Positions 39,450-56,255 of a stretch of DNA of 64,000 nt are shown piece by piece. A program made the position numbers and the translations under genes. The notes under the pieces are model-generated. The model saw nothing but the letters and a program-made list of their open reading frames with translations. It was not told the origin of the DNA and did no database searches. This stretch comes from Isoetes taiwanensis (lineage: Eukaryota > Streptophyta > Lycopodiopsida > Isoetales > Isoetaceae). Within the stretch, counting starts at the first letter, position 1. Each line of letters begins with the position of its first letter. The DNA is taken from positions 16,536,408 to 16,600,407 of the forward strand of contig JAJEKV010000032.1 in NCBI GenBank assembly GCA_021234155.1, in the 5' to 3' direction.

Positions 39450-40053
39450 TTAGCCAAAACTCTGAACAAAAAACATTTGCAGAGCAATTGGTGCTCCTGA
39501 TAGCTGGATATTCAAATTAACCCGGCGACCCGGTATGTGGCAGATAGCTCCACTTGCCAAGGTGACGGGACGTGGTTTGGATTTTAGAGTTGTAAGGTTT
39601 AATGACTCAACCAACCTGGGAGACGGAAAGTTGTGCGTACTTCCAGTATCCATTAAGATGACAAAGGGTTTGGCATCAATGTATCCAACAATGGATATGA
39701 CAGATGGCTGGTTGTCCGCGTTGCCAGTTTCTATAGCAGCAAAAATGTGAGACTCACCTTCTAGATAGTCTGGTGCCTCTTCGTCAGTAAGGGTCGGTAA
39801 GTCACAGAGAGGTATATAGTCCTCCTATTCCACTTCTGCCAGGGCTGCCTGCATCGCTTGGGTTACATATGAACATTACTGCATATGGTGCTCCGGTCGA
39901 AAACATCGGAAATAAGCTTTGTCCTACCTCAGCTGGTCGCGAGCCTCTCTAGGAATAGATTGGAGGATTTGCTGCACTTGGCCAGCAACGTTGCCTGACT
40001 TCTCTGGCACATTGAAGCTCACCTTCTTTTCTGTCTTCTACAAAGGCGGTTTG
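39450..40053 (-). pseudogene. Older gypsy element: zinc knuckle and protease half
   Basis: On the minus strand from 40,053 downward this continues the gag of the older element. A decayed CCHC knuckle (YFRCFRPEHHMQ then a stop then C, about 39,915-39,870) is followed by an acidic spacer. A retropepsin comes next, with its active site intact as MDTGSTHNF (39,653-39,627), then SKPRPVTLASGAI and GRRVNLNIQLSG. The order and wording parallel the 13.3 kb element's own knuckle and protease, so the two are close relatives. It stops abruptly at 39,450, where a tyrosine-recombinase-like fragment begins. The other half of the element lies at 53,381-56,255, beyond the 13.3 kb insertion. Confidence 0.75.
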
Positions 40054-41652
40054 TGACATTCCAAGGGAATATACGCCATAAATACATATATTCCTGGACC
40101 CGTCACTATACAAGTCTACCTTTGTAGCCTTGTATACCTTAGAAAGTGGTAATGGGTGCATATTTATAGGATAAGGCCCATTTCCACATGGCCTTAAACC
40201 GCCACACGGCCCCACCCCATTGGTGCCACGTGGCATCCCATGGGGACCCTAACCTATATTGGCCCTTTGTGACCGCCTCCTCTATGTCAGCTAGTAATAA
40301 TTCCTCTGTTATTACGACCTTTCTTACAAGAAAAGCCAGAGGTTAATCCCTTTTGGGGGTTAGTTTCCTGACCCTAGCACCTGAACACTCATCTACGCGC
40401 TCGAAACCCCGTTTCGAGCATCGTTCGTCATAGCATAGCCTGGTGCAGCAGCCCCCGAAGTGTGTGCACGATCTTGGAGGGAGCACAACTTCGACCACGT
40501 CAAGGAGCATGGAGACGCCAGGAATGGGAGGGAGTGCTTCTGGAACAGGTAGGTGGAGAAGAGTCATAGTAGTTCATCGGGAAGTTAGCACTCCAGATGG
40601 GTTTGTATCTTGTATCTAGAGTAGAGCCATCCTAGAACCCTTGTTGAACATCTTGAACCCTAATCAAGGAACCTTAACTGTAAGTTAGATATGTATGATT
40701 AGGTTAAGATGTTCTTATGACGTTCACCATGATATGATGTGATATGATGATGGTTGATCATGTTTGCTCCTCTTGTATTGGGAAGGGGGGTAGAGACCTA
40801 GTAGCCTTACTTAGTAGTATGCTCCTAGTTTAGACCCCTTAGTTCCTAATATTATTGCGGCCTGTGCATAGGAACCCACCGGGTTATGGAAGCTATGATG
40901 TGACTCAGCACTACACAACGGGGCTAGAGGCAATGCGGAGGGAGGATTCCTGCTGAGTGTGGCCACTGGGGATCCCATAGTGGGCTAGGCTTATGGTCGG
41001 TCACTTCGTGTGAGCCGGGCATGGGTCCGACACCTCCTGGGGCAATGGTGTCGCCCTGCCTCTCAAGAGTTGCAAGTGTTGGCTTGGCTCTTGTTTTGGG
41101 GGGGTAAGTCGGGTACGAATCGTGTGTCGCCACGATTCTCTAGCCGCCCGTAGAACCTCTAGACCCCGGGAAGGGGAGATGCAATCTTTCCTGCCTCGAT
41201 GGGCCAGGGAGATGCAACCTGGAGTAGTCCCGATGGGTGATGCCATGGGATTGCGTATCCTGAAGGCTAGAGTCATGCCAGAGCTTGATCTAGCCCATCT
41301 GCAAAGTATGCACAGGAGGGGCGGATGGAGTCTCCCTATGAGTCGGAGCCACGGGTAGGAGCTCTCATGTTTTATGGCATGTGATTATCTTCCTTGCAGT
41401 TATGGTTATGTGGATGAGCTACCCTTCGAGGTAGTATGATGTATTATTATTGCTAGTTCTGACGATGTTTATACTTCCGTTGTCATAGGAGCCCATAGGG
41501 GAAGGGCGCACAAGACACCTTCGTGTCCCCTTCCTGCACTACAGTGATCCCAGAGTGCGGGATAGATGGAGGGCCCGTGCGGTCGCAGGACCGGATGGGG
41601 GATTTCCTACGGAATGTACGGCTGGAAGCCGTATATTTAGTAGGGAGCGTCA
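40054..41652 (+). repeat. 5' LTR of the 13.3 kb element
   Basis: It aligns with 51,752-53,378 along nearly its whole length, including perfectly matched ends (TGAC...GTCA). Differences include an extra segment of about 90 bases near 40,263-40,365, the absence of the 'taagttaaatgtttaactta' segment and of the telobox found in the 3' LTR, and the absence of about 85 bases present in the 3' LTR at about 52,972-53,060. Two short hairpins are kept in both LTRs: GCTCGAAAC-CCC-GTTTCGAGC (40,399-40,419) and TACGGCT-GGA-AGCCGTA (41,617-41,633). Confidence 0.9.
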
Positions 41653-41655
41653 CAA

Positions 41656-41668
41656 TGGTATCAGAGCC
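41656..41668 (+). other. Primer-binding site, initiator-Met tRNA
   Basis: TGGTATCAGAGCC lies 3 bases after the LTR end. It is complementary to the 3' end of plant initiator methionine tRNA, the standard primer of plant chromoviruses and of many copia elements. It fixes the orientation and the 5' LTR boundary. Confidence 0.92.
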
Positions 41669-42214
41669 ATGTTCTTGGTTGACCAAGAACTAGCACTGAC
41701 CATATCCTTGAAAGTAGTCTAACAGGCCTGATAGGGTGTGAAATGAGAATTTCCACCATGGAACCTCGAAAATAGGGGAAAAATTTTTCCTAGGTGGTGG
41801 GTCTATAAGATAGGCTAAGTTGTTAGATGAGGAAAAAGAATGAGTCAAATTAACATTCTAGTAAAATTGGAGTGGAAATTATGAATCAACATCAAATTTC
41901 ACCTAATATGGGTCGAAGAATCATGTCAATCCGAGACCTGGGTGAAAAATGGCGCAAATTCATAATTAACACTTCAAACCATTAGGAAAAATTCGAAATT
42001 TTAATATAATACTATATTAACTATATACTAATAATTAAGTATATTGGAGTAATTAATTGGGGGGGCTAATTATTAGACCTATTAATGGTAAGGGAATATT
42101 CCCTAGAGCACCTTCCTTTTTAAATATCTTCTTGCCACCTCATTTCGCCCCAAACCTTGCCTACCACCTCTCTCTTGATTAGCCTTACGTCATCAATTTC
42201 TCAGACCGTAAGAT
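41669..42214 (+). other. Leader between primer-binding site and H3-like gene
   Basis: AT-rich non-coding leader with a GGGGGG run at about 42,060. The last 100 bases are pyrimidine-rich ('cacctcatttcgcccc', 'cctaccacctctctcttg'). No open frame of note. Confidence 0.6.
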
Positions 42215-43380
42215 GTGGCAAGGACCAAGCAAACCTATAGGAAGACTAGCCCGAGGCGAACCCCCTCGATGGCGGCAGCAGCAGCCGGAGGTCACGGCAA
42301 ACAAATCTCAGAGCATCTCCGACCGAGGCCACAGGAGAAGGCGTCGTCTTCCATTGACGAGACCTTCCATATCTCACAGGAGGAGGCCCCCAGCAGCAGC
42401 AGCAGCTCTTCGTCGGCAGGCACTCAGCGAACTGACGAGACTCGCCACTTTGGGCCCCTGTTTGACGAAGAGGTGGAGCATCAAGAGGAAGAGCGCCGGG
42501 AGGAGGAGACCGGGGAGCAGCAGCAGCAGCAGCATCAGACCCAGCCCCAGCCGGACCAGCAGGCAACCCCTTCTTCTAGCAAAAAGAAGAAGGGGAAGGA
42601 GAAGGTGAGAGAGTAGCCGGAGGAAACGGCGGCCAGGAAGAAGAGGGAGAGGGAGCTCAAGGAGAAGGAGCGGAGGAAGAAGGCGAGGAGGGATAGGCCT
42701 CGTGGGACAGTCACTATCGAAGAACCTCGCCCACGCGAGGACGAGGAGGAAGATGAAGAGGAGGAAGAAGATGAGGGGGAGAATGAAGAGGAGGAGGAGG
42801 AGCAGCAAGACGTTGGAGAACCTTCAGACCCCAACGCTACCCTAAGTGGCCCAAGCCACCTAAGATAGTAAAGAAGCAGAAGGTGGGCGAGCGCGAATTC
42901 ACGCTCCGTCAGGATCGTGAATTCAAGCGAAGAATGAAGGTGTACCAGGAGTACCTCCGTCGCTAGACGAGGTATAATAATTGGTACTGTAAGCAGAGCG
43001 TGGAGAAGTTCGTGAAGGGAGGGCGGCCGAAGAATCAGCCGAAGCCGCCATCACCTAGGCCGGAGAAGCCAAAGAAGACCCATCACGGGCCAAATTCCCG
43101 GCATGCTCGGGTGTTTAGGGAGATTAGGCACTTTCAACAGTGCACTAATCTCCTAATAAGGAAGGCGTCATTCGAACGCCTCCTTCGCGAAGTAATGCAG
43201 GAGTTCCAGACTGATTATAGGGTCACACCTCTAACCACCCGGGCCCTGCAAGAAGCATCTAAAGCAGAGCTGATTCAGCTCTTTGAGGAAGGAAATCTTT
43301 GCGCCATCCACGCCAAGCGGGTAACTGTTATGCCCAAGGACCTGCACTTGGCACGGAGGATCCGCAAAGAGAGGCCCTGA
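42215..43380 (+). pseudogene. Histone H3-like gene inside the retrotransposon
   Basis: Histone H3 is the nucleosome core protein whose tail is modified at K4 and K9. The frame opening at 42,215 starts MARTKQTYRKTS: the H3 tip ARTKQT plus R8 and K9 is kept, A7 is Tyr and S10/T11 are swapped. A linker of roughly 250 codons follows, rich in Gln/Ser and then in Glu/Lys/Arg. The last part (43,105-43,380) aligns without gaps to H3 residues 46-135, with [25 protein letters not shown] and MPKD in register. My manual count is about 54 identities in 87 positions (residues 49-135). Loop 1 has no CENH3-type insertion. Residues 56 and 79, Lys in canonical H3, are Gln here. The ORF is interrupted by TAG at 42,614, by a frame change near 42,840 and by TAG at 42,964. 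No intron is visible. If open it would give about 388 residues, against 135 for normal H3. Its position between primer-binding site and gag makes it element-encoded rather than a host gene. Confidence 0.88.
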
Positions 43381-43606
43381 GGCCTCAAGTTTTGTAATTA
43401 GAATAAGTTTTTCAATGTACTTAATTTTTTTCCATATATATAAGTTCTTCTTACTCTGTAATTTGATTGTATTATGCTTTGAAAATGTAAGTAACTAAGT
43501 TAAATTGTAGTAGAATTCTTTGTATGATGCTTAGAACGCTTATAATAGGTTAAGTAGCATAAAGTATTAGCACACAAGAAATCAACTTTGCTTCAAAAAT
43601 TGGCAA
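43381..43606 (+). other. AT-rich spacer after the H3-like gene
   Basis: Non-coding, with 'attttttt' and several 'tgtaa' words that could serve as plant near-upstream and far-upstream polyadenylation elements. The H3-like ORF might thus have its own 3' end, but this is inference only. Confidence 0.35.
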
Positions 43607-44079
43607 ACCGGGCGAGTCTGCGCCAATTGGCCCTGCGTTCGCAACGCAGAGCGATTTCGCACGAACTCACCCGGGTACCTCAATTTCGAGCAAAATTGAT
43701 CCAAAATTTGTGCTAAAAGTTAGTAAATTGCTTAGAATTTGCCTAGGAACCCGGTTTAGAACAAACTTTCAGCAAAAAAAATCATCTAAGATTGGCAAAA
43801 TTCAGGTGACCCGGGTGAGACCGCGCCGATTGGCCCTGCGTTCGCAACGCAGACCGATTTCGCGCGAACTCACCCGGTTGCCTTGAAATTCCACTTCTAG
43901 ATGCTCATTTTGCTTGAAATAAATTGCTAGCTAGGTTAGAATTGATCCAATTAGGCATATTAGTATCTTGCAACTCCTAGAAATGCTAAACTATCCCCAA
44001 ATCAGCCCAACCGGGCGAGACCGTGCCGATTGGCCTTGCGTTCGCAACGCAGAGCGATTTCGCGTGAACTCGCCGGGGT
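43607..44079. repeat. Three GC-rich dyad-symmetric boxes, 201-202-base period
   Basis: Boxes of 70 bases lie at 43,607-43,676, 43,809-43,878 and 44,010-44,079. Each begins with A-CC(C)GGG(C/T)GAG, ends with the near inverse CTC(A/G)CC(C/G)GG, and has a central inverted repeat CTGCGTT-CGC-AACGCAG (first base T in box 3). Between arms and centre lie 'gcc.attggcc' and 'gatttcgc.cgaact'. The spacers are AT-rich and share little with one another, whereas the boxes are nearly identical. This suggests that the boxes, not the whole period, have been conserved. Possible roles are a protein-binding site, an RNA hairpin for packaging or processing, or a terminator/insulator between the H3-like gene and the next ORF. 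Confidence 0.85.
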
Positions 44080-44375
44080 AGCCTCTTTTTGGCCTAGATT
44101 AGCCAAATTTGACCCAACAAACGGCCATGTAGTGGTTCTTGCTTTGTTTTACTTAGATTTGCACTTCATGGTAGTTCATTTGGAGACCCATAGCCTTAGA
44201 ACAAAAGTCTGTTCAATCAAGAACCCTTGTGCACAGAACCCGAGGCATACCATAGTCTATAAAAGGGAGTCTCGTTTGCCATTTTCCCTTCACCAAAACT
44301 GCTCTTGTCAACTTAGGCGATTTTTCAAGCTTCCACCAATCTTTCCAAGTCATTTTCTATACCTATCTCTGCTCA

Positions 44376-45902
44376 ATGGCGCCTAGCAGCTTTGTTAGAT
44401 GGTATGATGATGCCAACCACATCCATGACTTTCCCGCTGAACAGGCCTTCCAGGTGTTCGACCATTTGTTTGATCTTCATGCAACATTACCCCCTTCTAC
44501 ACTGACATCATTTGCCAATATGATCAGCAGATCCTACGCTGGGAAGTTAGCTTGCCCCATAGGGGAGGGAAATGGGTATCCCTGGAGTCGCTTAGCCAAG
44601 CCTTAGGAAGGGAGATGGGAGGATCCAAGGGCGGAACCAGTTGTGGGATAGGACCAGAACCATGCCCGACTACATGACCTGCAGGCATAATAGGCATAGA
44701 TACCTCTCATCCCAGACAGCCCTTGCTCTATTCATGCAGTATAAGTCAGTCAATAGGGTGGGAGAACCTTCCATTCAGCCTTTAGATCTAGCACCACTCG
44801 ACACTCGAAGGGACCAAAGCCACATTCACGAGATCGAGTCTTCCGAGTACATGTTCCACGGCATGATAGCAGGGACACCAGCATTGCAAATTGAACAAGA
44901 CTACGAGCAGCTAGGGGAAGAAAACCCAGGTTGGGAAAGCAGAGAGGCAATGAGGATCGAGAGGCGCATAGCCAGGCACGATGACAAAATCAGGCGAGTC
45001 TATGAGCTACCAAATCGGCATCACAGCCCTATCACTAATAGTCATCGACCGGAGAGGAGTACATCTTGGCAAACGACATCCTCAACCTTCCTTACTGTCA
45101 AGAAGAAGGGCTTAGAATCGACGAGCTTTTAGGCTTGATGGCAAAGGAGCAGAATACCAACCTCATCGACTACTCCTACCAGGAAATCCCAAGGGAGTTA
45201 GCAGAGCGGCACTCCTATGCCGCGGAGAGGTCAAACATAGCAGCCTATGAGCAGATAAGGGAGATCTATCGGTAGCAGGAACCAATCATCCCAGAGGAGG
45301 AGTTCCAAGAAATATAAAGCAGGTTGTACAAACCAGAAAGAGGCCCAAGCTCTAGCCGAACAGTTCGCTCCAGGAGTATGCGGGAGGCATCCAGTAGCAT
45401 CAACCTGGAGAACGCAACTACCATATGGAGGGATCATGAAGACCTCTTAGCAGTAGATGTCTACGGCGGGGCAGCTCAAAGGAAGGGCACAGGGTCACAG
45501 AGCATAGGCAAGGGTAAGGCGCTCCGCAACTACCTCCCAGTCCTCAGTCAAGGGCAGATGATAGTCTTTCACAAGGAGTTCAGCCCAAGAGGAGAAGAGT
45601 CCGTGGCGCTCCTCATAGCGCTCTCTGGCTTGGGGCAGCACGCCACGCTATACATCCATACGGATCATGTCATTCTCTTCAAGAGATCTGTGGCACTCCA
45701 TTGCCTTGACTTCGCCAGAGGCCACCTCAGGGATGCGACATTGTCAGTAGTAGCAGCAACCGCACCAGAACTCCCAGCACCTGAAATGGCCCGAGCACTC
45801 GAAGGGGGATCAACCAGGAACGTCTTGCGCAACCTCGACAAAGGCCTTCGGCTTAGGGACGTCAAGAATTTCTTCAAATTGACGAAGGGCCATCGAAGAT
45901 AA
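44376..45902 (+). pseudogene. Second extra ORF upstream of gag, function unknown
   Basis: A chain of frames (44,376-44,605; 44,641-45,132; 45,066-45,275; 45,324-45,902) with one or two stops and frame changes would make a protein of about 500 residues. The first frame opens at ATG 44,376 (MAPSSFVRWYDDANHIHDF). The last part (45,430-45,790) has a layout reminiscent of RNase H folds. A first strand LLAVDVYGGA is followed by a helix with Glu in PRGEESVALLIALSGL, a strand with Asp in ATLYIHTDHVILF, and an ARGH near the end. The usual first Asp would be a Gly here. This is suggestive only. Plant Tat/Ogre elements are known to carry an extra ORF upstream of gag and, separately, an extra RNase H, but chromoviruses normally do not. 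Confidence 0.5.
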
Positions 45903-46132
45903 ATAATTTCTGTTTTTACTTATCTTCTAAATTGTATTGAATGTCTTCACTTCTATGTACTATCATGTATTTTATATTAATGTGTAATTCTTATATGTTA
46001 ATGACTATAAATTGTCCTTAACTTATAAGTGCAATTTTGACATGATTTCTTTTATGCTCAACAATAATTCACTTGTAAATAAGGATGAATAATGTATAAC
46101 TTAAGTAACAGCATTGATGACTAATACTTGCA
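45903..46132 (+). other. AT-rich spacer or intron upstream of gag
   Basis: An AT-rich stretch ends in 'aatacttgcag' at 46,133. Just after it, the gag frame is open upstream of its first ATG (46,229). The composition and the CAG end look like the 3' part of an intron; the donor is not identified. Confidence 0.35.
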
Positions 46133-46133
46133 G

Positions 46134-47368
46134 CCAGGAACACCGGCTCAGGGTCTCAAGGCCAGGGCCGGCATCATCAGGTACCTAGAAACTTATTTGG
46201 GCGTGAACAAGACGACAACAATGAAGAAATGACGGTGGAGACAGTTAACGCAAGGCTCACCCAAATGAGGAACCAGATGCACCAGCTGATTCACTGGGCA
46301 ACCCCATTGATGAACGCTCAAGAATATGGACCTGCACCACCACCTCCACCACCACTACCAGCGCAAGGCATTGAGGAGGCTCCGGAACCAGAAGGGGAAG
46401 ACAATCAGGGAAATGTCAGGGACAGGAAGAGAAAAAGGAGAACCAGAAGGACCCCAACACCATCTAGCTCTAGCACATCAGATACTTTTGACAGCCAGAA
46501 CAGTTCCAGCTCCGAGAGTGAGTCCGATACATCACAGTTAAGAGCCAGGGCAAGAAAGACAGATGACTATCAGAAGAAAGTGGACAGCGCTATGAGCAAT
46601 GTATGGAAGACTAGGAAGTTGGGTCAGTTTTCAGGGAAAGACAGGTCAGGCATGGATGCAGAAGCTTGGCTTGATGAAGTGGAAGAGTTTGGTAATTCTT
46701 ACGGCATGAAGGACAAAGACATAGGGAAGGTTGCTACATCCAACTTAATAGGAGCAGCCAGGATTTGGTGGAAGGGCTACGCGAAGACCAATAAGCTGAA
46801 AAGAAATAGTTGCAGATTCAAGACCTTCTTTCGCAAACATTATGTGCCAAGATCACATACTAGTAGGCAGATCCAGCAGTTCTACAGGCTAGATCAAGGG
46901 AACCTATCAGTAGCTAAGTACACAGAGGAATTCATGCGGCTCAAGCTCAATGTTCCCGGAATCTCTAAAAGGCAAGCGGTTGATGGATACATAGAAGGGT
47001 TGAACAGCAATATCAAAAGGCTAGTCCGAGCAATCAACCCAAGGACAGTGGCAGAAGCCGAGGACAAAGCTTTAAGTTTGGAAGAAGCACCAGTAACTCC
47101 AGGCCAGAAACAGTTACCATTCAAGGGTAAAACAACAGGGCAGTATCAGAATAAGCAATCAACAACTACGTCAGCCGGAGGCCAACATCAAGGGAACATT
47201 TAAGGAAAGCCCTTTGGGGACCGTAGGCCACAAAATGGATCAAGGGGCAGTTCGCTCAAGCGTCTCCTAGACAGCCTGCCAAAGGAAAAGAGGCAGGAAT
47301 GCATTGAAAAGAAGTTATGCTTCAAGTGCTTCCAGCCAGGGCACCGAACGCACGACTGCCCATTCGTC
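46134..47368 (+). pseudogene. Gag with CCHC zinc knuckle (13.3 kb element)
   Basis: Gag forms the virus-like particle and binds element RNA. The first ATG is at 46,229, but the frame is open back to about 46,121 (ARNTGSGSQGQGRHH...), so translation may begin on an upstream spliced exon. After a Pro-run and a Ser/Asp-rich, Arg-rich linker comes the retrotransposon gag core, with EAWLDEVEEF, IWWKGYAK, FRKHYVP, IQQFYRLDQG, YTEEFMRLKLNVPGIS and GYIEGLNSNIK. An in-frame TAA at 47,201-47,203 separates it from the knuckle CFKCFQPGHRTHDC (C-x2-C-x4-H-x4-C) at about 47,320-47,361, which is in the same frame. This stop is either a lesion or a readthrough point; other lesions nearby favour a lesion. Confidence 0.88.
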
Positions 47369-48066
47369 ATGCAGGCAGCCTTGGCAGAGCTTGCAGATTG
47401 GGAATCACCAACCGAAGGAGACGACGAAGAGGACGACCAGCAGGAATCCCAAGATTTCATAGATGGTGAGTGCCATATTTGTGCAGCTATTGAGTCAGGT
47501 GATGTTGAAAATCAGTCCACAGTCATTGCGATTGAGGGAATCATAGATAGCAGTCCATATCTAGTTTTGATATATACAGGTAGCTCTCACAACTTTGCCT
47601 CTCCTAGGCTTGCTGCCCTAATGAAGAATAAAGTCTTGAAGTCAAAGCCAAGGCCAGTTAGCTTGGCAAGCGGTGCCATTCGCCACACTAAGGGGAGGAG
47701 GATCATGTTTGACATAGACCTTAGTGGAAGCGAGTGGCCGATGGGGGCAGAGGTCATGGATATTGGAAAATATGACCTTATAGTGGAATGGAGTTCCTAA
47801 AGCCAGCTAAAGCGATGATCAACTGCGAGCGCAACGAGATCTCCATGACGGCGCCGGACGGCAACAGATTCATAGTAAAAGGTAAGAAGGTAGCTTCTCC
47901 TATGCAGTGCATTTCCTTGAAGCAACTAAGAAAAAGTATAGTAAGAAATAAGGTGGAGTATATTCTGAGGTTAGAGGCAATTGAACCAACCAAAGAGAAG
48001 GGAAGTGACTTAAGTGGGAATCAGTTGCCCAAGCCAGTAGCAAGGCTCATTAGGGAGTTCAAATGA
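47369..48066 (+). pseudogene. Retropepsin (aspartic protease), inactivated
   Basis: In the gag frame the sequence continues through an acidic spacer to the protease that would cleave the Gag-Pol polyprotein. The family active site D-T-G-S is here Y-T-G-S (TAT at 47,573-47,575), which should abolish catalysis. The protease copy of the older element at 39,653 keeps DTGS, so the change is specific to this copy. SKPRPVSLASGAI and the usual strand pattern follow. The frame ends at 47,800, and the next part (47,788-48,066) is in another frame. Two further stops precede the RT. Confidence 0.85.
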
Positions 48067-48119
48067 TGTATTTTCGGATCAAATCCGTCAGCTACCACCT
48101 TATACCTTATAGAATGAGC

Positions 48120-48990
48120 ACCCCGGAGTTGATTGAGCTCAAGAAGTAGCTACAGGAATTGCTTGACCTTGGATTTATTAGAGCAAGTGTGTCTCCTTTT
48201 GGAGCACCCATACTCTTCGTGAAGAAGAAAGATGGGAGCCTAAGAATGTGCATAGATTATCGCCAGCTTAACAAGCAGACGATAAAGAATAAGTATGCTC
48301 TCCCAAGAGCAGATGACTTGATGGATCAGCTCCAAGGAGCGAAGGTTTTCTCTAAGATTGACTTAAGGTCAGGTTACCATCAGATAAGGATAAAGGAAGA
48401 AGATATCCATAAGACCGCCTTCAGAACGTGGTATGGGCACTTCGAGTTTACGGTAATGCCCTTTGGCTTATCGAATGCCCCGGCAACTTTTATGCGTCTC
48501 ATGAACGACATCTTCAGGGAGTTCTTAGATGAGTTTGTCATTGTTTTCTTCGACGACATTCTAGTCTACAGCAAGTCCATTGAAGATCATTGTCAGCAAT
48601 TGAGAAGAGTGTTGGAAAAGTTGAGACGGCATCGGTTGTATAGGAAGCTCTCCACATGCCACTTTGCTACCGAAAGAGTGGAGTACTTGGGCCACGTGAT
48701 ATCAGCAGAAGGGATCTCCACCGACCCTGCAAAGATTGAAGCAGTAGTTGATTGGCCAGCTCCAAAGAACGTGGCAGAAGTAAGGAGCTTTCTAGGTCTG
48801 GTAGGATACTATAGGAAGTTTGTAAAGGACTTCGCTAAGTGGGCGTCCCCTTTGACGGACCTCACTAAGAGTGTTAAGGTGAAATATTGGAGAACACATT
48901 GGCTAGAAAATGTTCAAGCTTCATTTGAAAAGCTTAAGGAAGCCTTAACAATAGCACCAGTGCTAATTCTGCCGGATCCGGATGAGGACA
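48120..48990 (+). pseudogene. Ty3/gypsy reverse transcriptase
   Basis: This is the polymerase that copies element RNA to DNA. Long open frame 48,159-49,055, preceded in frame by TPELIELKK then a TAG (about 48,147). Motifs in order: [32 protein letters not shown] (motif A Asp), [29 protein letters not shown] (FFDD at 48,546-48,557, catalytic pair intact), HVISAEGI, and [19 protein letters not shown] in the connection. It is the best-preserved domain of the element, with no lesion inside the palm. FFDD in place of YVDD is a common variant in gypsy RT. Confidence 0.93.
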
Positions 48991-49340
48991 AGTTAGTAGC
49001 AACTGGTGCAAGTAAGCTAGCACAGGTGGAGTCCTTATGCAAGAAGGGAGAGTAGTAGCCTATGATTCTAAAAAGTTGAATGACGCCGAGCAGCGTTATC
49101 CAACCCATGATCAGGAGCTTCTAGCTATTGTGAGAGCTCTTCGTATTTGAAGGCATTATTCGCTTGGAAGGAAATTTCAATTAGATACTGATCACCAGAG
49201 CCTCCAATACATTTTTACCCAACCACTCCTCAATCTAAGGCAAAGGAGGTGGATAGAATTCCTTGAAGAGTATGATTTCGAGATTGCTTATAAGCCGGGT
49301 AAGTTGAATGTGGTTGCTGATGCTCTCTCTACCTTGAGAC
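48991..49340 (+). pseudogene. RNase H domain, inactivated
   Basis: RNase H degrades the RNA strand of the hybrid. The first catalytic position, normally ATDAS in this family, reads ATGAS (GGT at 49,005-49,007). A frame change follows near 49,050 and a TGA near 49,148. The rest is recognisable in shifted frames: [34 protein letters not shown] (Asp retained), EYDFEIAYKPGKLNVVADAL. Both the Asp loss and the frame changes indicate a dead copy. Confidence 0.88.
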
Positions 49341-49399
49341 GAGAACACATTGTAATGCTATATCGACTCTTTCGAGTGCGTATGGCAAAAAAATTGAGG

Positions 49400-50330
49400 A
49401 GACTTTGCCATCTGATGGTGATTTCAAGGAGGTATGGGCAAGCCTCTCTAAGGAGGCTAGAACAGACAAGGAACGTGAAGCCTTCAAACATTATAGGAAG
49501 GAAGGCAACTTGTTGTACCATAAGGATAAGTTGTGTGTGCCCGAATCGTCAGGTGTAAGGAAGTTAATTCTTCATGACACACACAACAGCCCAATAGCAG
49601 GGCATGCGGGGTTTATGAAGACGTATTTCAAGATTCGAAGTAGCTATTTCTGGCTAGGAATGAAGAAACAGATAGCCAGATATATTCAGGAATGCCAATT
49701 GTGCCAGTAGACCAAGGCAGAGCAGCTTCGAATTCCAGGAGCCTTGGAACCTTTAGCAATGCCGAATGCAAAATGGGAAGTGGTAAGCATGGATTTTATC
49801 ACAGGACTTCCTAGAACTCTACGAAGCAAAGATGCACTAATGGTGGTCGTAGATAAATTATCTAAGATGGCACACTTCGTGCCTTGCAAAACTACGAACA
49901 CAGCCTTAGACACTGCCGTTCTATTTGTTAAGGAGATTTTTAGACTCCACGGCATGACTCGAGAGATAATATCAGGCAGGGATTCCAAGTTCATTAGTGC
50001 ATTCTGGCGGGATCTTTTTACCACGATCCAGACCAAGCTCGATGAGTTACGCGCACCATCCTCGATCGGATGGCCGACGGAGCGGACGAATCGCATCATC
50101 GAAGATATGCTCAGAAGTTATGTGTGGAATAAGCAATCCAAGTGGGATGATTATATCCACTTGGTAGAATTCGCCTACAACAAGATTTGGGCGGGGAGTC
50201 ATCCCGCATGTCTCCATGATCAATTACAGGTACCAAGGCCTAACCCCGGATACTTGGCACAATCCGGTGTCAAAAGTTGAAGTATCTCAGCAGATGCTAG
50301 GAGATATGCAACAACTGGTAGAGGAAGTAA
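49400..50330 (+). pseudogene. Integrase, inactivated
   Basis: Integrase inserts element DNA into the genome. The HHCC zinc-binding region is seen at 49,570-49,707 (HDTHNSPIAGHAG ... ECQLC), closed by a TAG at 49,708. The core follows from 49,744. The first catalytic Asp is in VSMDFITGLP. The second, normally in S-D-R-D, reads SGRD (GGC at 49,975-49,977). The catalytic Glu region is GWPTERTNRIIEDMLRSY. The frame slips near 50,000-50,070, where wording is lost, and again after 50,180. Loss of the second Asp together with the frame slips makes it inactive. Confidence 0.9.
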
Positions 50331-50828
50331 GGGGGTACCTACCTATTGGCACGGCAGAAGAGCGTAGCCGACAGGCACAAGACCGTAAGGGAGTTCAAGG
50401 TAGGCGATAGCGTGTGGTTGAAGATCAAGGTAAAGCAAGCTAAGCTTCACATAGGGAATTGCAAGAAGCTTGCCCCTAGGTGGACCAGGCCGTTCAAGAT
50501 CTTGGAGAGAGTGGGCTCTCAGGCCTGCAAGTTGGATCTCCCGGCGCACCTTAAAGTCCACAAGGCCTTCCATGTAAGTTTATTGAAAAGGCACAACCCA
50601 AACCCTGAGGAGGTTTTGGATACTCCAACTTTGTTGGAAATGATGGAGGAGCAAGACGAAATTGTGCCTGAATTACTTCTTGATAAGTCATTCAAGAAGA
50701 CTAGGAGATCTCAGTTCCTCCAGTATTTGGTCAAGTGGAAACACTTGCCCGTGGAAGACGCGACATGGGTATTGAAGCAGGATTTGGAGAAGCAATACCC
50801 AGACTTCATGAAGGAGTTTGATGGGTGA
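50331..50828 (+). pseudogene. Integrase C-terminus with chromodomain
   Basis: A clean 160-codon open frame at 50,346-50,828. It begins with the integrase C-terminal region (REFKVGDSVWLKIK) and a GPY/F-like module (LAPRWTRPFKILERVG...CKLDLPAHLKVHKAFHVSLLKRH). It ends with a chromodomain (FLQYLVKWKHLPVEDATWV then LEKQYPDF, about 50,710-50,815). Chromodomains of plant chromoviruses are known or thought to bind methylated histone H3 tails (classically H3K9me) and direct insertion into heterochromatin. This one keeps the Y-L-V-K-W...ATW pattern. The element also encodes an H3-type tail, which makes this domain of special interest. Confidence 0.92.
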
Positions 50829-51736
50829 GTCGTCTCCGACTTGGTCGACCCCGGCTTGCCAAGAGGTTAGCTTAGTATGTTTCTTAGTTAGCCTTAGCTC
50901 TGGCAGATGAATTCTAGCTAGTGGAATGCATATGCCAGAATCTTGGAATGTGTAGGCGATGATGAGATACGCCTTTAAGGCATTCTCTAGGCCAACATGC
51001 ACCAAGAGGTGCGCATGACTAATAGGGTCATGCGAGAGAGGAAGTGAGGCATGGTGGGCGATGATGGGACATCTGTCGGATGCTCTCTATGCCACGATGC
51101 GGGGTTCGCACACCTGACCATAGGGGGGTCATGGTGAAGGTCAAAGTGATGATGCGCGATGATGGGATCGTGAGACGTTCCCTAGCTTGAAACCCTTGGG
51201 GCATGATGCACTGGGAATACTCGGCACTGGGTAACCGAGTACAAGGTAGCACTTGATCATGGGCGATGATAGGATCATCTTAAATGGTCCTTAAGCTCAA
51301 ATCCGAAAGGGCCATGATCGAGTGCAAGGTAGTAGGGTAACCTTGAGCTAGTAGTTCGGCTCAAGGAGGTAGGTAAGGGGGGTGGTCCCCTAAAACCACA
51401 AATTTATTAACTAAACTAACGTAATGTGCTACTCGTGCAGGCAAGTGAGAAGCGAACATCGAGGAGGGGCGCATTACGAAAAGATGGAGGAGCCATGATT
51501 TATATTTAAATTATGAACCCTAATAACTCTTATAGTAATGTTTTGATTTATTATAGGGAGTAACCTTGTTAAGGCTATATAATTTTGTACAGGTACAAAT
51601 ATAGCCAAAATTTTGTCAATTAACTGTTTAATAGGAAGTTGATCGTTAATTTAAATTAAAGTTGTATACTTACGTTGTTTTGCAGGGATAGTGTAGGTTC
51701 GTCACCTTAGCGCAATGCTGAGGACAGCATTGTCCT
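50829..51736 (+). other. 3' untranslated region with four phased 13-mers
   Basis: About 900 bases of non-coding DNA between the chromodomain stop and the polypurine tract. The word GCGATGATGGGAT (with one or two changes) occurs at 50,956, 51,058, 51,156 and 51,263, spaced 98-107 bases. The intervening DNA contains looser related words ('gcatgatgcac', 'catggtg'). No open frame of note. Confidence 0.7.
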
Positions 51737-51749
51737 AAGGGGGGGAGAA
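51737..51749 (+). other. Polypurine tract
   Basis: AAGGGGGGGAGAA lies two bases before the 3' LTR start. It is the primer for plus-strand DNA synthesis and confirms the LTR boundary. Confidence 0.9.
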
Positions 51750-51751
51750 TA

Positions 51752-53378
51752 TGACGTTCCAGGGGAATATATGCCATAAATACGTATATTCCTGGACCCG
51801 TCACTATACAAGTCTACCTTTGTAGCCTTGTATACCTTAGAAAGTGGTAATGGGTGCATATCTAAGTTAAATGTTTAACTTAGATAACCTTAGGATAAAG
51901 CCCATTTCCACATGGCCTTATTCTATTGGGCAAACCGCCACACGGCCCCACCCCATTGGTGCCACGTGGCATCCCATGGGGACCCTAACCTATATTGGCC
52001 CAAACCCTAACCCTAGACTTCTTTTCCTGACCCTAGCACCTGAACACTCATTTACACGCTCGAAACCCCGTTTCGAGCATCGTTCGCCATAGCATAGCCT
52101 GGTGTAGCAGCCCCCGAAGTGTGTGCACGATCTTGGAGGGAGCACGGCTTCGACCACGTCAAGGAGCATGGAGATGCCAGGAATGGGAGGGAGTGCTTCT
52201 GGAGCAGGTAGGTGGAGAAGAGTCATAGTAGTTCATCGGGAAGTTAGCACTCCAGATGGGTTTGTATCTTGTATCTAGAGTAGAGCCATCCTAGAACCCT
52301 TGTTGAACATCTTGAACCCTAATCAAGGAACCCTAGCTGTAAGTTAGATATGTATGATTAGGTTAAGATGTTCTTATGATGTTCACCATGATATGATGTG
52401 ATGTGATGATGGTTGATAATGTTTGCTCCTCTTGTATTGGGAAGGGGGGTAGAGACCTAGTAGCCTTACTTAGTAGTATGCTCCTAGTTTAGACCCCTTA
52501 TATTGTGGCCTGTGCATAGGAACCCACCGGGCTATGGAAGCTATGATGTGACTCAGCACTACACAACGGGGCTAGAGGCAATGCGGAGGGAGGATCCCTG
52601 CTGAGCGTGGCTACTGGGGATCCCATAGTGGGCTAGGCTTATGGTCGGTCACTTCGTGTGGGTCAGGCATGGGTCCGACACCTCCTGGGGCAATGGTGTC
52701 ACCCTGCCTCTCAAGAGTTGCAAGTGTTGGCTTGGCTCTTGTTTCGAGGGGTTAAGTCGGGTACGAATCGTGTGTCGCCACGATTCTCTAGCCGCCCGTA
52801 GAACCTCTAGACCCCGGGAAGGGGAGATGCAACCCTTCCTGCCTCAACGGGCCAGGGAGATGCAACCTGGAGTAGTCCGATGCCATGGGATTGCGTATCC
52901 CGAAGGCTAGAGTCATGCCAGAGCTTGATCTAGCCCATCTGCAAAGTATGCACAGGAGGGGCGGATGGAGTGGTCAACCCTAGCTATTGTCTATAGCCAG
53001 CCCCACCATTGTTATGACTCGGTCTGCTCTATCTTGAGGCCTATCCAGTCAGTCGACCTCCCTATGAGTCGGAGCCACGGGTAGGAGCTCTCATGTTTTA
53101 TGGCATGTGATTATCTTCCTTGCAGTTATGGTTATGTGGATGAGCTACCCTTCGAGATAGTATGATGTATTATTATTGCTAGTTCTGACGATGTTTATGC
53201 TTCCGTTGTGATAGGAGCCCATAGGGGAAGGGCGCGCAAGACACCTTCGTGTCCCCTTCCCACACTATGGTGATCCCAGAGTGCGGGATAGACGGAGGGC
53301 CTGTGCGGTCGCAGGACCGGATGGGGTATTTCCTACAGAGTGTACGGCTGGAAGCCGTATATTTAGTAGGGAGCGTCA
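51752..53378 (+). repeat. 3' LTR of the 13.3 kb element
   Basis: Matches 40,054-41,652. In the first 110 bases the two LTRs differ at about five places, three of which are C/T or G/A changes at CpG sites, as expected from methylcytosine deamination. Larger differences are indels: extra segments near 51,862-51,892 and 52,972-53,060, and a different, shorter segment near 52,000-52,025. The same two hairpins occur at 52,058-52,078 and 53,343-53,359. Confidence 0.9.
52002..52016 (+). promoter_or_regulatory. Telobox in the 3' LTR
   Basis: AAACCCTAACCCTAG contains the plant telobox AAACCCTAA, a promoter element often found in genes of the translation and replication machinery and also a Polycomb-recruiting motif. 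The 5' LTR lacks it, having different sequence at this point. Two repeats are too short to mean telomeric DNA. Confidence 0.5.
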
Positions 53379-53380
53379 CA

Positions 53381-54090
53381 TGGTTGCCGAGAAGGACCCA
53401 AACTAAGAGAGCGGGCCTTGTATGACGCATATGTCTTGCTTGGAATAAAACTAGTAGGACGCGGATAAGATGAATTTGGGGCGTCCTCCTCCAAACTGAG
53501 GGCTTTTGCCTCGGCCTCTGCCACGATTTTTGGGTCAACGGTGCTCACCATCTTCCTCAAGGTTGGGAACAACCCTTCAATGTAGCCCTCTATGGCACGA
53601 CACTCATTGATTCCTGGTACATACAACCGCAGCCGCATGAATTCATCAGTATAGACTTGGACAAAGAGGACACGTTGTTCCAGGCGGTAGAATATCTGTA
53701 TCTGCTTACACCTGTGCACCCTGGGGACATAGTGGAACTTAAAGGCTTTTGCAAAGATTTTAAATTTGCACCTGCTTCTGTTCAAGCCATGGGATCTCGC
53801 ATAGCCCTTTCACCAAATTCTGGATGACTTAGTGAGGTTGATAGTGGCCATTTTACCCATGTCCCTTTCGGTCATCCCGTACGACTTTTCGAATTCATGC
53901 ATCTCATCCAACCAGGATTCAGCATCCACTCCCGAGCGGGAAGTACCGGAGAACTAGGTGAGTTTGCGATTCTTCCATATATTTGTTATGGCCAAGTCCA
54001 CTGTCTTCTGTTAGTCTTTTTTCTTGGACTTTGCACAGTCGTGATCAGAGCAGCGGAGTCTGAAGAGTCAGATGGATCTGAACTACTACC
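53381..54090 (-). pseudogene. Older gypsy element: gag N-terminal part
   Basis: Reading the minus strand from about 54,090 down, a Ser/Asp-rich linker is followed by the gag core, parallel to the inner element's gag. It contains ITNIWKNRKL, SGVDAESWLDEMHEFEKSYG, FHYVPRVHRCKQIQIFYRL, YTDEFMRLRLYVPGINECRA and GYIEGL, ending in a Pro/Ser region. At 53,381 it is interrupted by the 13.3 kb element and resumes at 40,053. There are stops and frame changes. The similarity shows host and inserted element belong to one chromovirus group. Confidence 0.8.
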
Positions 54091-54152: not shown

Positions 54153-54695
54153 CTAGCAGTGACAGGTACAATGTTCTTGAGTAAGGGATGCTGGTATGTC
54201 TTCCCAAATAAAACATTGGATCTCCTCATCATAATAATATGGGGGCAAGGTGAAATTCACCCTTGCGTTATAGCCCTTTATTGTTGCCTTATATTGTTGC
54301 CCTCTGACAACGGGGTCTCCAGTTGCAACCTGCAGTGCATCCTCGTCTTGGGCCATGTCCATTATCTTGGCAGCTTCACGGCGGGCTTCTTCCGTGGCGG
54401 CATCTGGGCTCAAGTCCGGAGGATAATAATGGACAAGAGTTAATACTTGGGCGTCCTGCTCCACAAGAGTGTACCTCTTGCCTTCAGCATTAAGTTTCAG
54501 CAGGAACCACTCTATGAGATGGAATATGGGGTAAGGAATCTAGTCTCCCTCCATAAACCTTTGAACCAACTGCTCTAGGAGGAGCTCAATCTTGCGGGGG
54601 CCGTCCGGGGTGTCGACGAGGTTACAGCCGAGTTCAACAAAGAGTTGGAGGAGGTTGCACAAGGCGTAGCTCTTGGTTCCCTTGGTGCAGGCCAT
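54153..54695 (-). pseudogene. Extra ORF upstream of gag in the older element
   Basis: An ATG at 54,695 opens a frame (MACTKGTKSYALCNLLQLF...) that continues in one frame to 54,153 with a single TAG at 54,540-54,542, about 180 codons in all. It has ordinary globular composition (RYTLVEQDAQVLTLVHYYPP, DPVVRGQQYKATIKGY, VNFTLPPYYYDEEIQCF). I recognise no family and see no clear similarity to either extra ORF of the inner element. Its place between the leader and gag parallels them. Confidence 0.5.
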
Positions 54696-55289: not shown

Positions 55290-56255
55290 TGTCATGCTCC
55301 CCGAGCCTATACGATGCTCCCATCATATAAATACAGGAAATCCCTTTTCCATGGCGACCTCATCACATCCATCGACCTCGGGCCATCTGGGATGGCCAAA
55401 TGCCGGGGGAAGGGAGATGAGGTGTCATTCGTCCCATGCCTTCTATGGGAATCCTATATAGCGGAAGCGTAAATACGAGTTAGCACCTAGCACACAATAT
55501 ATAAGATAATACACCACCGTGATGGGTGGCCCATCCATCAATAATCTGTCTACTAGTGACAAAGACAAATATGGCAAATACATCGAAGTAAGGATCTAAT
55601 TCCCGGGCTCGGACTCCATGATGTCAACTGACTGGCAAGGCCTCCGGATAATAGCAGACATAATAATGGCAATGGCATTGGCTAGCATAGAACACTAGAG
55701 TAATCCACTCCATCCGCCCCTCCTGTGCACATTTTGCGGATAGGCTGAATCATGCTCTGGCATCATTGTAGCCTTCCGGAGACGCAATCTCATGGATTCA
55801 CCCTATGAGACTATTCCAGGTTGCATCTCCCCAATCTGACGAGACAGGGAGGAAATGAATTCACTCCTAGAACATGATAGTTCCATGGGTGGCTAGAGGA
55901 TTTCCCCCGAAATCCATAGGCCGCCCCGGAGCACCCATCAAGCCCAAGAAGTCCCTTTCAGTATGTATCTTGCGACCCAGGAGGTGTCAGACCCATACCC
56001 GACCCTACACAGGGACCAACTATAAGTCTAGCACACTATAGGAGCAGTCAAATTAGGCAGGATTCCACCTTCGTTTCACCATCATGCTCGTTGTATAGTG
56101 CTAAATCACAACATAGCATTCACAGCCAGGTGGGATCTTGTGCACATGCCGCAATTACTGGGATTTAAGGGGTTCTAGCTAGGAGCATCACTAAATCTAG
56201 GTAGCTTTTAGGTCAAGGTATTTATACATATATCGTATAAATATATGGGACGTCA
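55290..56255 (-). repeat. 5' LTR of the older minus-strand gypsy element
   Basis: On the plus strand it begins 'tgtcatgctcc' and ends 'gggacgtca', the inverse of the TGAC...GTCA ends of the inner LTRs. Long parts match the reverse complement of those LTRs: the 'ccatccgcccctcctgtgca' block at 55,708, and the 'tagtgct.a.tcaca.catagc' block near 56,097. It is about 970 bases, against 1.6 kb for the inner LTRs. Its 3' partner would lie left of 39,450 and is not seen, so that end of the element is lost. Confidence 0.7.

Follow-up and report, generated by a model that had tools for sequence, protein, structure and literature searches.

An H3-like histone encoded by a family of chromodomain Ty3/gypsy retrotransposons in Isoetes taiwanensis is maintained by purifying selection

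Introduction

Core histones encoded by parasitic genomes have been described in several settings. In Dothideomycete fungi, histone H3 is carried by hAT DNA transposons that have spread to hundreds of copies and have been inactivated by RIP (PMC6710886). Bracoviruses encode an H4 with an extended tail and some large DNA viruses encode singlet H3-like histones, which the passages on single viral histones describe as being thought to enter host nucleosomes (PMC9145170). Plant LTR retrotransposons are known to contain additional ORFs (aORFs); most of those described are found downstream of pol, before the 3' LTR, and their products are env-like or unknown (PMC7264820).

In this work we analysed a stretch of 64,000 nucleotides from Isoetes taiwanensis (contig JAJEKV010000032.1, positions 16,536,408 to 16,600,407), referred to here as the window. 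A preliminary description made from the sequence had noticed in it a histone H3-like gene lying between the primer-binding site and gag of a Ty3/gypsy chromovirus, and had proposed that the element family evolved a chromatin-mimicking protein, which might package element DNA, enter nucleosomes or divert silencing marks of the host.

Results

A nearly complete chromodomain Ty3/gypsy LTR element with LTRs of 1.6 kb occupies positions 40052-53380 of the window, in forward orientation. It is flanked by the 5-mers CGGTT (40047-40051) on the left and TGGTT (53381-53385) on the right, a target-site duplication with one mismatch. The LTR pair, tRNA primer-binding site and polypurine tract of a chromovirus are all present: the 5' LTR (40052-41654), with termini TGTGAC...GTCACA, is followed by the primer-binding site TGGTATCAGAGCCA (41656-41669), which we take to be complementary to initiator tRNA-Met, and the polypurine tract AAGGGGGGGAGAA (51737-51749) directly precedes the 3' LTR (51750-53380). 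The domains are arranged in the order gag, protease, RT/RNase H, integrase and chromodomain. Above the Pfam cut-offs are gag (46229-47203; Retrotrans_gag, 8.1e-15), the reverse transcriptase with the start of RNase H (48159-49055; RVT_1, 1.4e-36) and the integrase C-terminal SH3-like region with the chromodomain (50346-50828; SH3_Tf2-1, 8.9e-20, and Chromo, 2.9e-11). The protease-like stretch (47369-47800; RVP_2, 6.9e-4, slightly under the cut-off) and the decayed integrase core (49744-50280; rve, 2.4e-4) are in the expected place but below the cut-off in this decayed copy. Length and LTR size hint at a possible placement in the Tekay/Del clade. Of 1506 aligned sites, 61 distinguish the two LTRs, 52 of them by a transition (K2P 0.042), and thus the window element is a copy of some age.

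The interval between primer-binding site and gag measures 4.5 kb and harbours two extra ORFs. ORF1 (42215-43380, natural end at the TGA at 43378) encodes the H3-like protein and is broken in the window copy; ORF2 (44376-45902), which belongs to no known family, is split here over several frames. The region between them contains three copies of a 79-bp repeat (43596-44077, repeat family D5) spaced by about 200 bp. These repeats include palindromic stretches (GCGTTCGCAACGC), and a related repeat was present in 18 of the 20 genomic contexts fetched from other loci. A splice-donor-like ACC/GTAAGAT lies at 42205-42216, right before the start of ORF1; it is found in many copies and is absent from L025 and L027.

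The whole element has inserted into the gag of a relative that lies on the opposite strand; the preliminary description had mentioned neither this nesting nor the conserved ORF2. On the reverse strand, the flanks at 53384-53902 and 39480-40037 match residues 1-173 and 178-359 of the gag-pol of L051, a member of the type-B subfamily described below, at 67% and 59%. Further out, 54192-54695 (reverse strand) encodes a sequence related to the N-terminal domain of type B (33%, E 3.7e-25), which starts with MACTKGTK and lies directly before gag, and an LTR-like stretch of this outer element spans 55420-56193, also on the reverse strand. Neither a type-B H3 fold nor an ORF2 was found beside this N-terminal domain, and thus the outer element looks internally deleted or H3-less.

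ORF1 can be divided into three parts. The H3 tip (42215-42244) reads VARTKQTYRK, with MARTKQT(Y/A)RK in relatives. It is followed by a long insert (42245-43098) that passes from a Ser/Gln-rich into a Glu/Lys/Arg-rich stretch and ends in a conserved linker (PKWPKPPK...KPKKTHH). The last part (43099-43377) is a histone H3 fold, aligned to H3 residues 43/47-135 on the basis of Pfam, PDB and residue counts. The identity proposed in the preliminary description is upheld: positions 43000-43377 (126 aa) score 101.9 bits against Pfam Histone (3.8e-29), well over its cut-off of 26.4, the runners-up CENP-S (0.0066) and CENP-T_C (0.036) are both under their own cut-offs, so that no domain fits this region better than the histone family, and a PDB sequence search with the window fold returned H3 chains, the best at 4.6e-31. 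The H3 tip is an additional point of agreement. The earlier manual count of about 54 identities in 87 also agrees with the 57-66% identity to H3 residues 47-135, in gap-free register, of the 44 copies of the same type as the window (type A), and the location between primer-binding site and gag was found both in the window and in other copies. Two details had to be amended. The frame at 42215 reads VARTKQTYRKTS, and its first codon is GTG, so that the initial M given before is a V in the window copy, with GTG in place of ATG. Moreover, the region does not form a single ORF over 42215-43380 as first described, since it is interrupted by in-frame TAG codons at 42614 and 42964 and by a frame change near 42838; in other copies ORF1 is unbroken over 365-390 codons. 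By its fold the element protein is closest to H3, and the complete H3 tail with K4, K9, K14, K18, K23, K27 and K36 is found neither in type A, which has its residues 1-9 and no more, nor in type B.

The genome assembly searched for further copies comprises 1,658,258,908 bases in 1110 contigs. The best 150 matches to the window fold were 80-99% identical to it, and the searches with the window fold and with the fold of a second copy, L022 (best 150 matches each), together yielded at least 262 distinct H3 places. The candidate numbers obtained at first look (9921, 9022 and 9646) are not copy counts; the best 150 were scored per search. Type-A copies are dispersed across many contigs, and 27 of the best 150 type-A matches, by hand count from the table, have a stop-free frame of at least 360.

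Twenty contexts of 10 kb, chosen from the window-fold match list with preference for long open frames, were inspected for the arrangement of the element. A matching LTR was present upstream of the H3 ORF in 17, ORF2 downstream of it in 19 and gag in 14; the order LTR-H3-ORF2-gag was complete in 13, and the primer-binding-site 12-mer TGGTATCAGAGC was exact in 14. A search with gag, independent of H3, gave 123 places. For 37 of these, one of the listed H3 places lies 2.3-4.7 kb upstream in the same orientation, compared with one at equal distance downstream and none on the opposite strand as controls. The remaining 86 have no H3 among the at least 262 listed places, a figure that neither shows nor excludes H3-less relatives. 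The ORF2 search returned 84 places, 34 with a listed H3 place just upstream. Thus, the H3-like ORF recurs at the same position in further copies, and it is the family as a whole that carries it, as the preliminary description had supposed, rather than a single element.

A second subfamily, type B, emerged from the search with canonical H3, in which 15 host H3 places at 96-98% identity were followed by at least 135 places at 71-86%. Two of these, L051 and L052, fetched with their context, are LTR elements with the same primer-binding site as the window element, and within the fetched stretch the type-B domains extend from gag to RNase H. ORF1 of L051 encodes 409 aa, that of L054 419 aa. The type-B fold is 85-86% identical to canonical H3, and the type-B N-terminal domain differs from that of type A, beginning with MAITK... 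or MTNTK..., with no ARTKQTARK tip and nothing of the H3 tail beyond M.x.T.K. Compared with the window element, ORF2 is 24% identical (E 4.7e-9), gag 61%, protease 51% and RT 76%, and these relationships indicate a common ancestor of the two subfamilies. Judging from the sequences, this ancestor would most simply have carried both extra ORFs, although a second uptake, or a replacement of the H3 part in one subfamily, could also have occurred. When the N-terminal 199 residues of type B, without the fold, were used as query, at least 150 places were found among the matches listed; a frame of 400 or more without a stop is present in 69 of these 150, and in 43 a listed H3-fold place follows directly. 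The AlphaFold model of the type-B protein (mean pLDDT 40.1) was too poor to inform.

Selection was estimated with a codon model on type-A sets from which type-B loci were kept out, and copies covering less than 60% of a stretch were excluded from its omega. The 44 type-A copies include the window; L001 (the window itself) and L002, L003, L005 and L008 (duplicates of L009-L012) were dropped. Omega was 0.092 for the fold (44 copies; lnL -3793.8 versus -4249.1 at omega 1), 0.131 for the linker (25 copies) and 0.229 for the N-terminal 60 codons (37 copies), each rejecting omega 1 by more than 120 log-likelihood units. For the other parts of the element the values were 0.251 for ORF2 (19 copies), 0.276 for protease (11 copies), 0.197-0.204 for gag (11 copies) and 0.198 for RT (10 copies, after removal of a foreign RT, L013, only 27% identical). 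In type B, the comparison of L051 with L054 gave 45 synonymous changes against 5 nonsynonymous ones for the fold (ratio 0.018) and 124 against 123 for the N-terminal part (0.164), and that of L053 with L054 gave 28 against none for the fold; these pairs were also drawn from an H3 search. Because resemblance to the query protein was the criterion for choosing fold copies, the dN/dS of the fold is biased downward. The linker, ORF2, gag and RT were not used as query in the fold searches, and their low omegas agree with that of the fold. Purifying selection on the H3-like protein therefore equals or exceeds that on gag and RT, and the selective constraint that the preliminary description had put forward for checking is borne out, with a fold value of about 0.09 and not near 1.

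These values bear directly on the idea that a host H3 gene is simply being transduced without function, as in the fungal hAT elements. The window copy and many others are indeed broken, and passive, transposon-driven amplification of H3 is documented in fungi (PMC6710886). However, the dN/dS of 0.09, 0.13 and 0.23 for fold, linker and N-terminus, with 1 rejected, and the retention of H3 in two divergent subfamilies after an old uptake make this explanation hardly credible. For the family, passive carriage was rejected, as the relaxed selection that it entails was not found. Recurrence together with purifying selection instead identifies a selected, element-encoded family of H3 variants and not a one-off capture; this family is real and recurrent.

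We then considered the fold residue by residue, taking the roles of H3 residues in DNA contact, H3-H3 contact and chaperone reading to be those generally accepted. In type A, H113, K115, V117, T118, D123, L126 and K64 are kept in all 44 copies, R83 and K122 in 43, R72 and R116 in 41, R63 and R69 in 40 and R49 in 37; the four type-B copies retain every one of these contact residues. R129 is also kept in all or nearly all type-A copies. Type A has in turn its own substitutions: K53H, E59N and S87L in 44 of 44, Y99E in 43, F84V in 42, A90R in 41, K56Q in 38 and K56M in the other 6, and K79 changed to R, Q or V in 40. Type B retains K56, K79 and F84. The tip MARTKQT(Y/A)RK is recognisable in 39 of the 44 type-A copies, with the initial M in 36 of these 39, R2, K4 and K9 in 38 and R8 in 37, and with Y (26) or A (8) at residue 7. 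Likeness to the H3 tail ends after residue 9, positions 10-11 being variable (T 12, Y 9, C 7, P 5 of 39), and in type A the tail residues 10 to about 40 are gone, among them K14, K18, K23, K27 and K36. The conservation of contact residues thus indicates that the fold has remained suited to H4 and DNA, whereas only nine residues of the tail are left in type A and the type-B tail has been replaced.

The abrupt end of conservation after residue 9 would also be expected if the protein were a decoy, in which ARTKQT(A/Y)RK, displayed on a long, disordered acidic and basic arm, engages in solution the host proteins that read and write H3K4 and H3K9, or host histone chaperones, and interferes with silencing outside nucleosomes. 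The long Glu-rich stretch resembles, from general knowledge, the acid tracts of histone chaperones, and the chaperone-recognition stretch 86-90 is changed in type A. We regard this alternative as less likely, because it leaves unexplained why constraint is strongest on the fold (0.092, compared with 0.229 over the N-terminal 60 codons) and why DNA-contact and H3-H3 residues are retained; moreover, type B has no ARTKQTARK tip and yet has the most conserved fold. The retained DNA-contact residues, and the position of ORF1 as the first ORF after the leader and before gag, could alternatively reflect packaging, with the H3-like protein and host H4 condensing the cDNA of the element within virus-like particles or upon release from them, like the histones of giant viruses. 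Histones that viruses encode and use to pack their DNA have been described (PMC12297534, PMC9145170). However, the cDNA is made in a cytoplasmic particle, where a lone H3-like protein would need host H4, and a Pfam scan of ten stretches of the element revealed no H4-, H2A- or H2B-like ORF; packaging is therefore unlikely.

Regarding the origin of the H3 part, type B and a host H3 gene have diverged to saturation at synonymous sites (pS 0.85-0.95), which indicates that the uptake is old and that the protein outlived the capture. A recent derivation from a host H3 gene or retrocopy was rejected, given the host H3 places at 96-98% and the saturated synonymous divergence of type B. In trees built with H3 and CENH3 reference sequences, type A forms one clade (100/100) whose branching point is left without support, and type B a separate clade (94/97 and 93/99) in the neighbourhood of plant H3 and of the long CENH3 branches, which it adjoins at 82/85 and 75/69, probably by long-branch attraction.

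The protein could also be imagined as a CENH3-like histone by which the element or its chromatin is directed to centromeres. This would fit the motif EIRHFQ..TNLLI that type A has in common with Arabidopsis CENH3, and CRM-clade chromoviruses are generally known to reside in centromeres. This explanation is nevertheless very unlikely, since type A and CENH3 do not group together in the tree, the copies lie over many contigs, and loop 1 of the element H3 is ungapped and of canonical H3 length, without the CENH3 insertion; loop 1 of CENH3/CENP-A is longer than that of H3. An origin from CENH3 was rejected on these grounds.

ORF2 is conserved and often unbroken among copies, with 509 aa in L025 (L025:4587-6113) and 382 aa in type B (L051:4297-5442). 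No Pfam family was above cut-off for it, none of the 8000 candidates scored in a protein search reached E<=0.001, and its AlphaFold model (mean pLDDT 39.0) was too poor to use. For the linker plus fold of L025, no protein reached E<=0.001 among 117 candidates, and three scans of viral contigs, with P0016, P0017 and the protein of L025, gave no relative either. Multicopy H3-fold proteins with N-terminal extensions are numerous in protein databases, where they derive from ENA contigs (P0010-P0116); one motif family (MTKTKTTKRKYHS...) makes up 40 of the 120 listed extended H3-fold matches, and there are smaller families (MVRTKQTARKES... and others). These proteins may be further element-borne H3s.

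Discussion

Host organisms mark histone tails to silence retrotransposons. The explanation that we favour, with a probability of about one half, is that a chromodomain Ty3/gypsy lineage took up H3 long ago and has kept it as a functional protein that would form nucleosomes evading this silencing. The H3 coding sequence would have been inserted between the primer-binding site and gag, beside the second accessory ORF. The protein would enter the nucleus and, by means of the conserved H3-H4 and H3-H3 contact surfaces, pair with host H4 and form nucleosomes or tetramers on DNA. A nucleosome containing type-A H3 would carry no host K27 or K36 marks, would have looser entry DNA and would show only the K4/K9 tip, which the chromodomain of the element itself may read. 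The most likely benefit would be that new element DNA, or active copies, covered by such nucleosomes are silenced less well.

Since the conserved parts are the contact surfaces, we infer that the element H3 works as a histone, and its entry into nucleosomes with host H4 is, from the residues retained, the most likely course. However, residue 84, K79 and the chaperone-read stretch 86-90 are altered in type A, and thus assembly may be altered or lost there. K9 is the main silencing site in plants, and its retention in type A speaks against evasion, though Tyr replaces Ala at residue 7 in 26 of 39 copies.

A more far-reaching version, which we consider speculative, is that the lineage both writes and reads its own chromatin. 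H3 variants whose N-terminal domains differ between subfamilies would be deposited with host H4 on element DNA without the main silencing sites, the integrase chromodomain would read the K4/K9 tip, and new copies would land or stay active there; the extended multicopy H3 proteins in databases would represent the same strategy elsewhere.

If silencing is indeed evaded through an H3 that the element supplies itself and that lacks most of the markable tail sites, this would be a direct counter-move to the host and a natural experiment revealing what a nucleosome requires of H3, and elements may dress or disguise DNA with self-made chromatin. Whether a parasite can alter the histones of its own chromatin is a general question that becomes testable with this family, which also provides new variants of H3. 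In addition, matches annotated as histone H3 in plant genomes can be element genes.

The closest described case remains that of the fungal hAT elements, in which, as here, a mobile element took up and multiplied an H3 coding sequence (PMC6710886). The carrier there is a DNA transposon and the H3 is near-canonical and unfused, whereas the Isoetes family is an LTR retrotransposon whose H3 has a long new N-terminal part, is under purifying selection and occurs in two subfamilies. The single viral histones resemble it in that a parasite genome encodes one core histone, and the passages that describe them name no retrotransposon (PMC9145170); they belong to DNA viruses or are virus-derived, while the histone described here belongs to a retrotransposon resident in a plant genome and has had most of its tail replaced. 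The aORFs, in the sections that treat them, are likewise conserved extra ORFs beside gag-pol (PMC7264820). In the window family, however, the extra ORFs lie between the primer-binding site and gag and one of them is a core histone, a word (histone) absent from the aORF paper. The open-access literature, which was the scope of our search, yielded in the parts available no retrotransposon coding for a core histone. Thus, genes carried by elements and histones encoded by viruses are known, and what appears to be new, as far as searched, is a retrotransposon lineage with its own selected H3. With canonical plant H3 and CENH3 this protein has in common the fold, the tip, and the DNA-contact and H3-H3 residues; it differs from plant H3 in that residues 10 to about 40 are replaced by about 250 residues and, in type A, in K56Q/M, F84V and the changed stretch 86-90.
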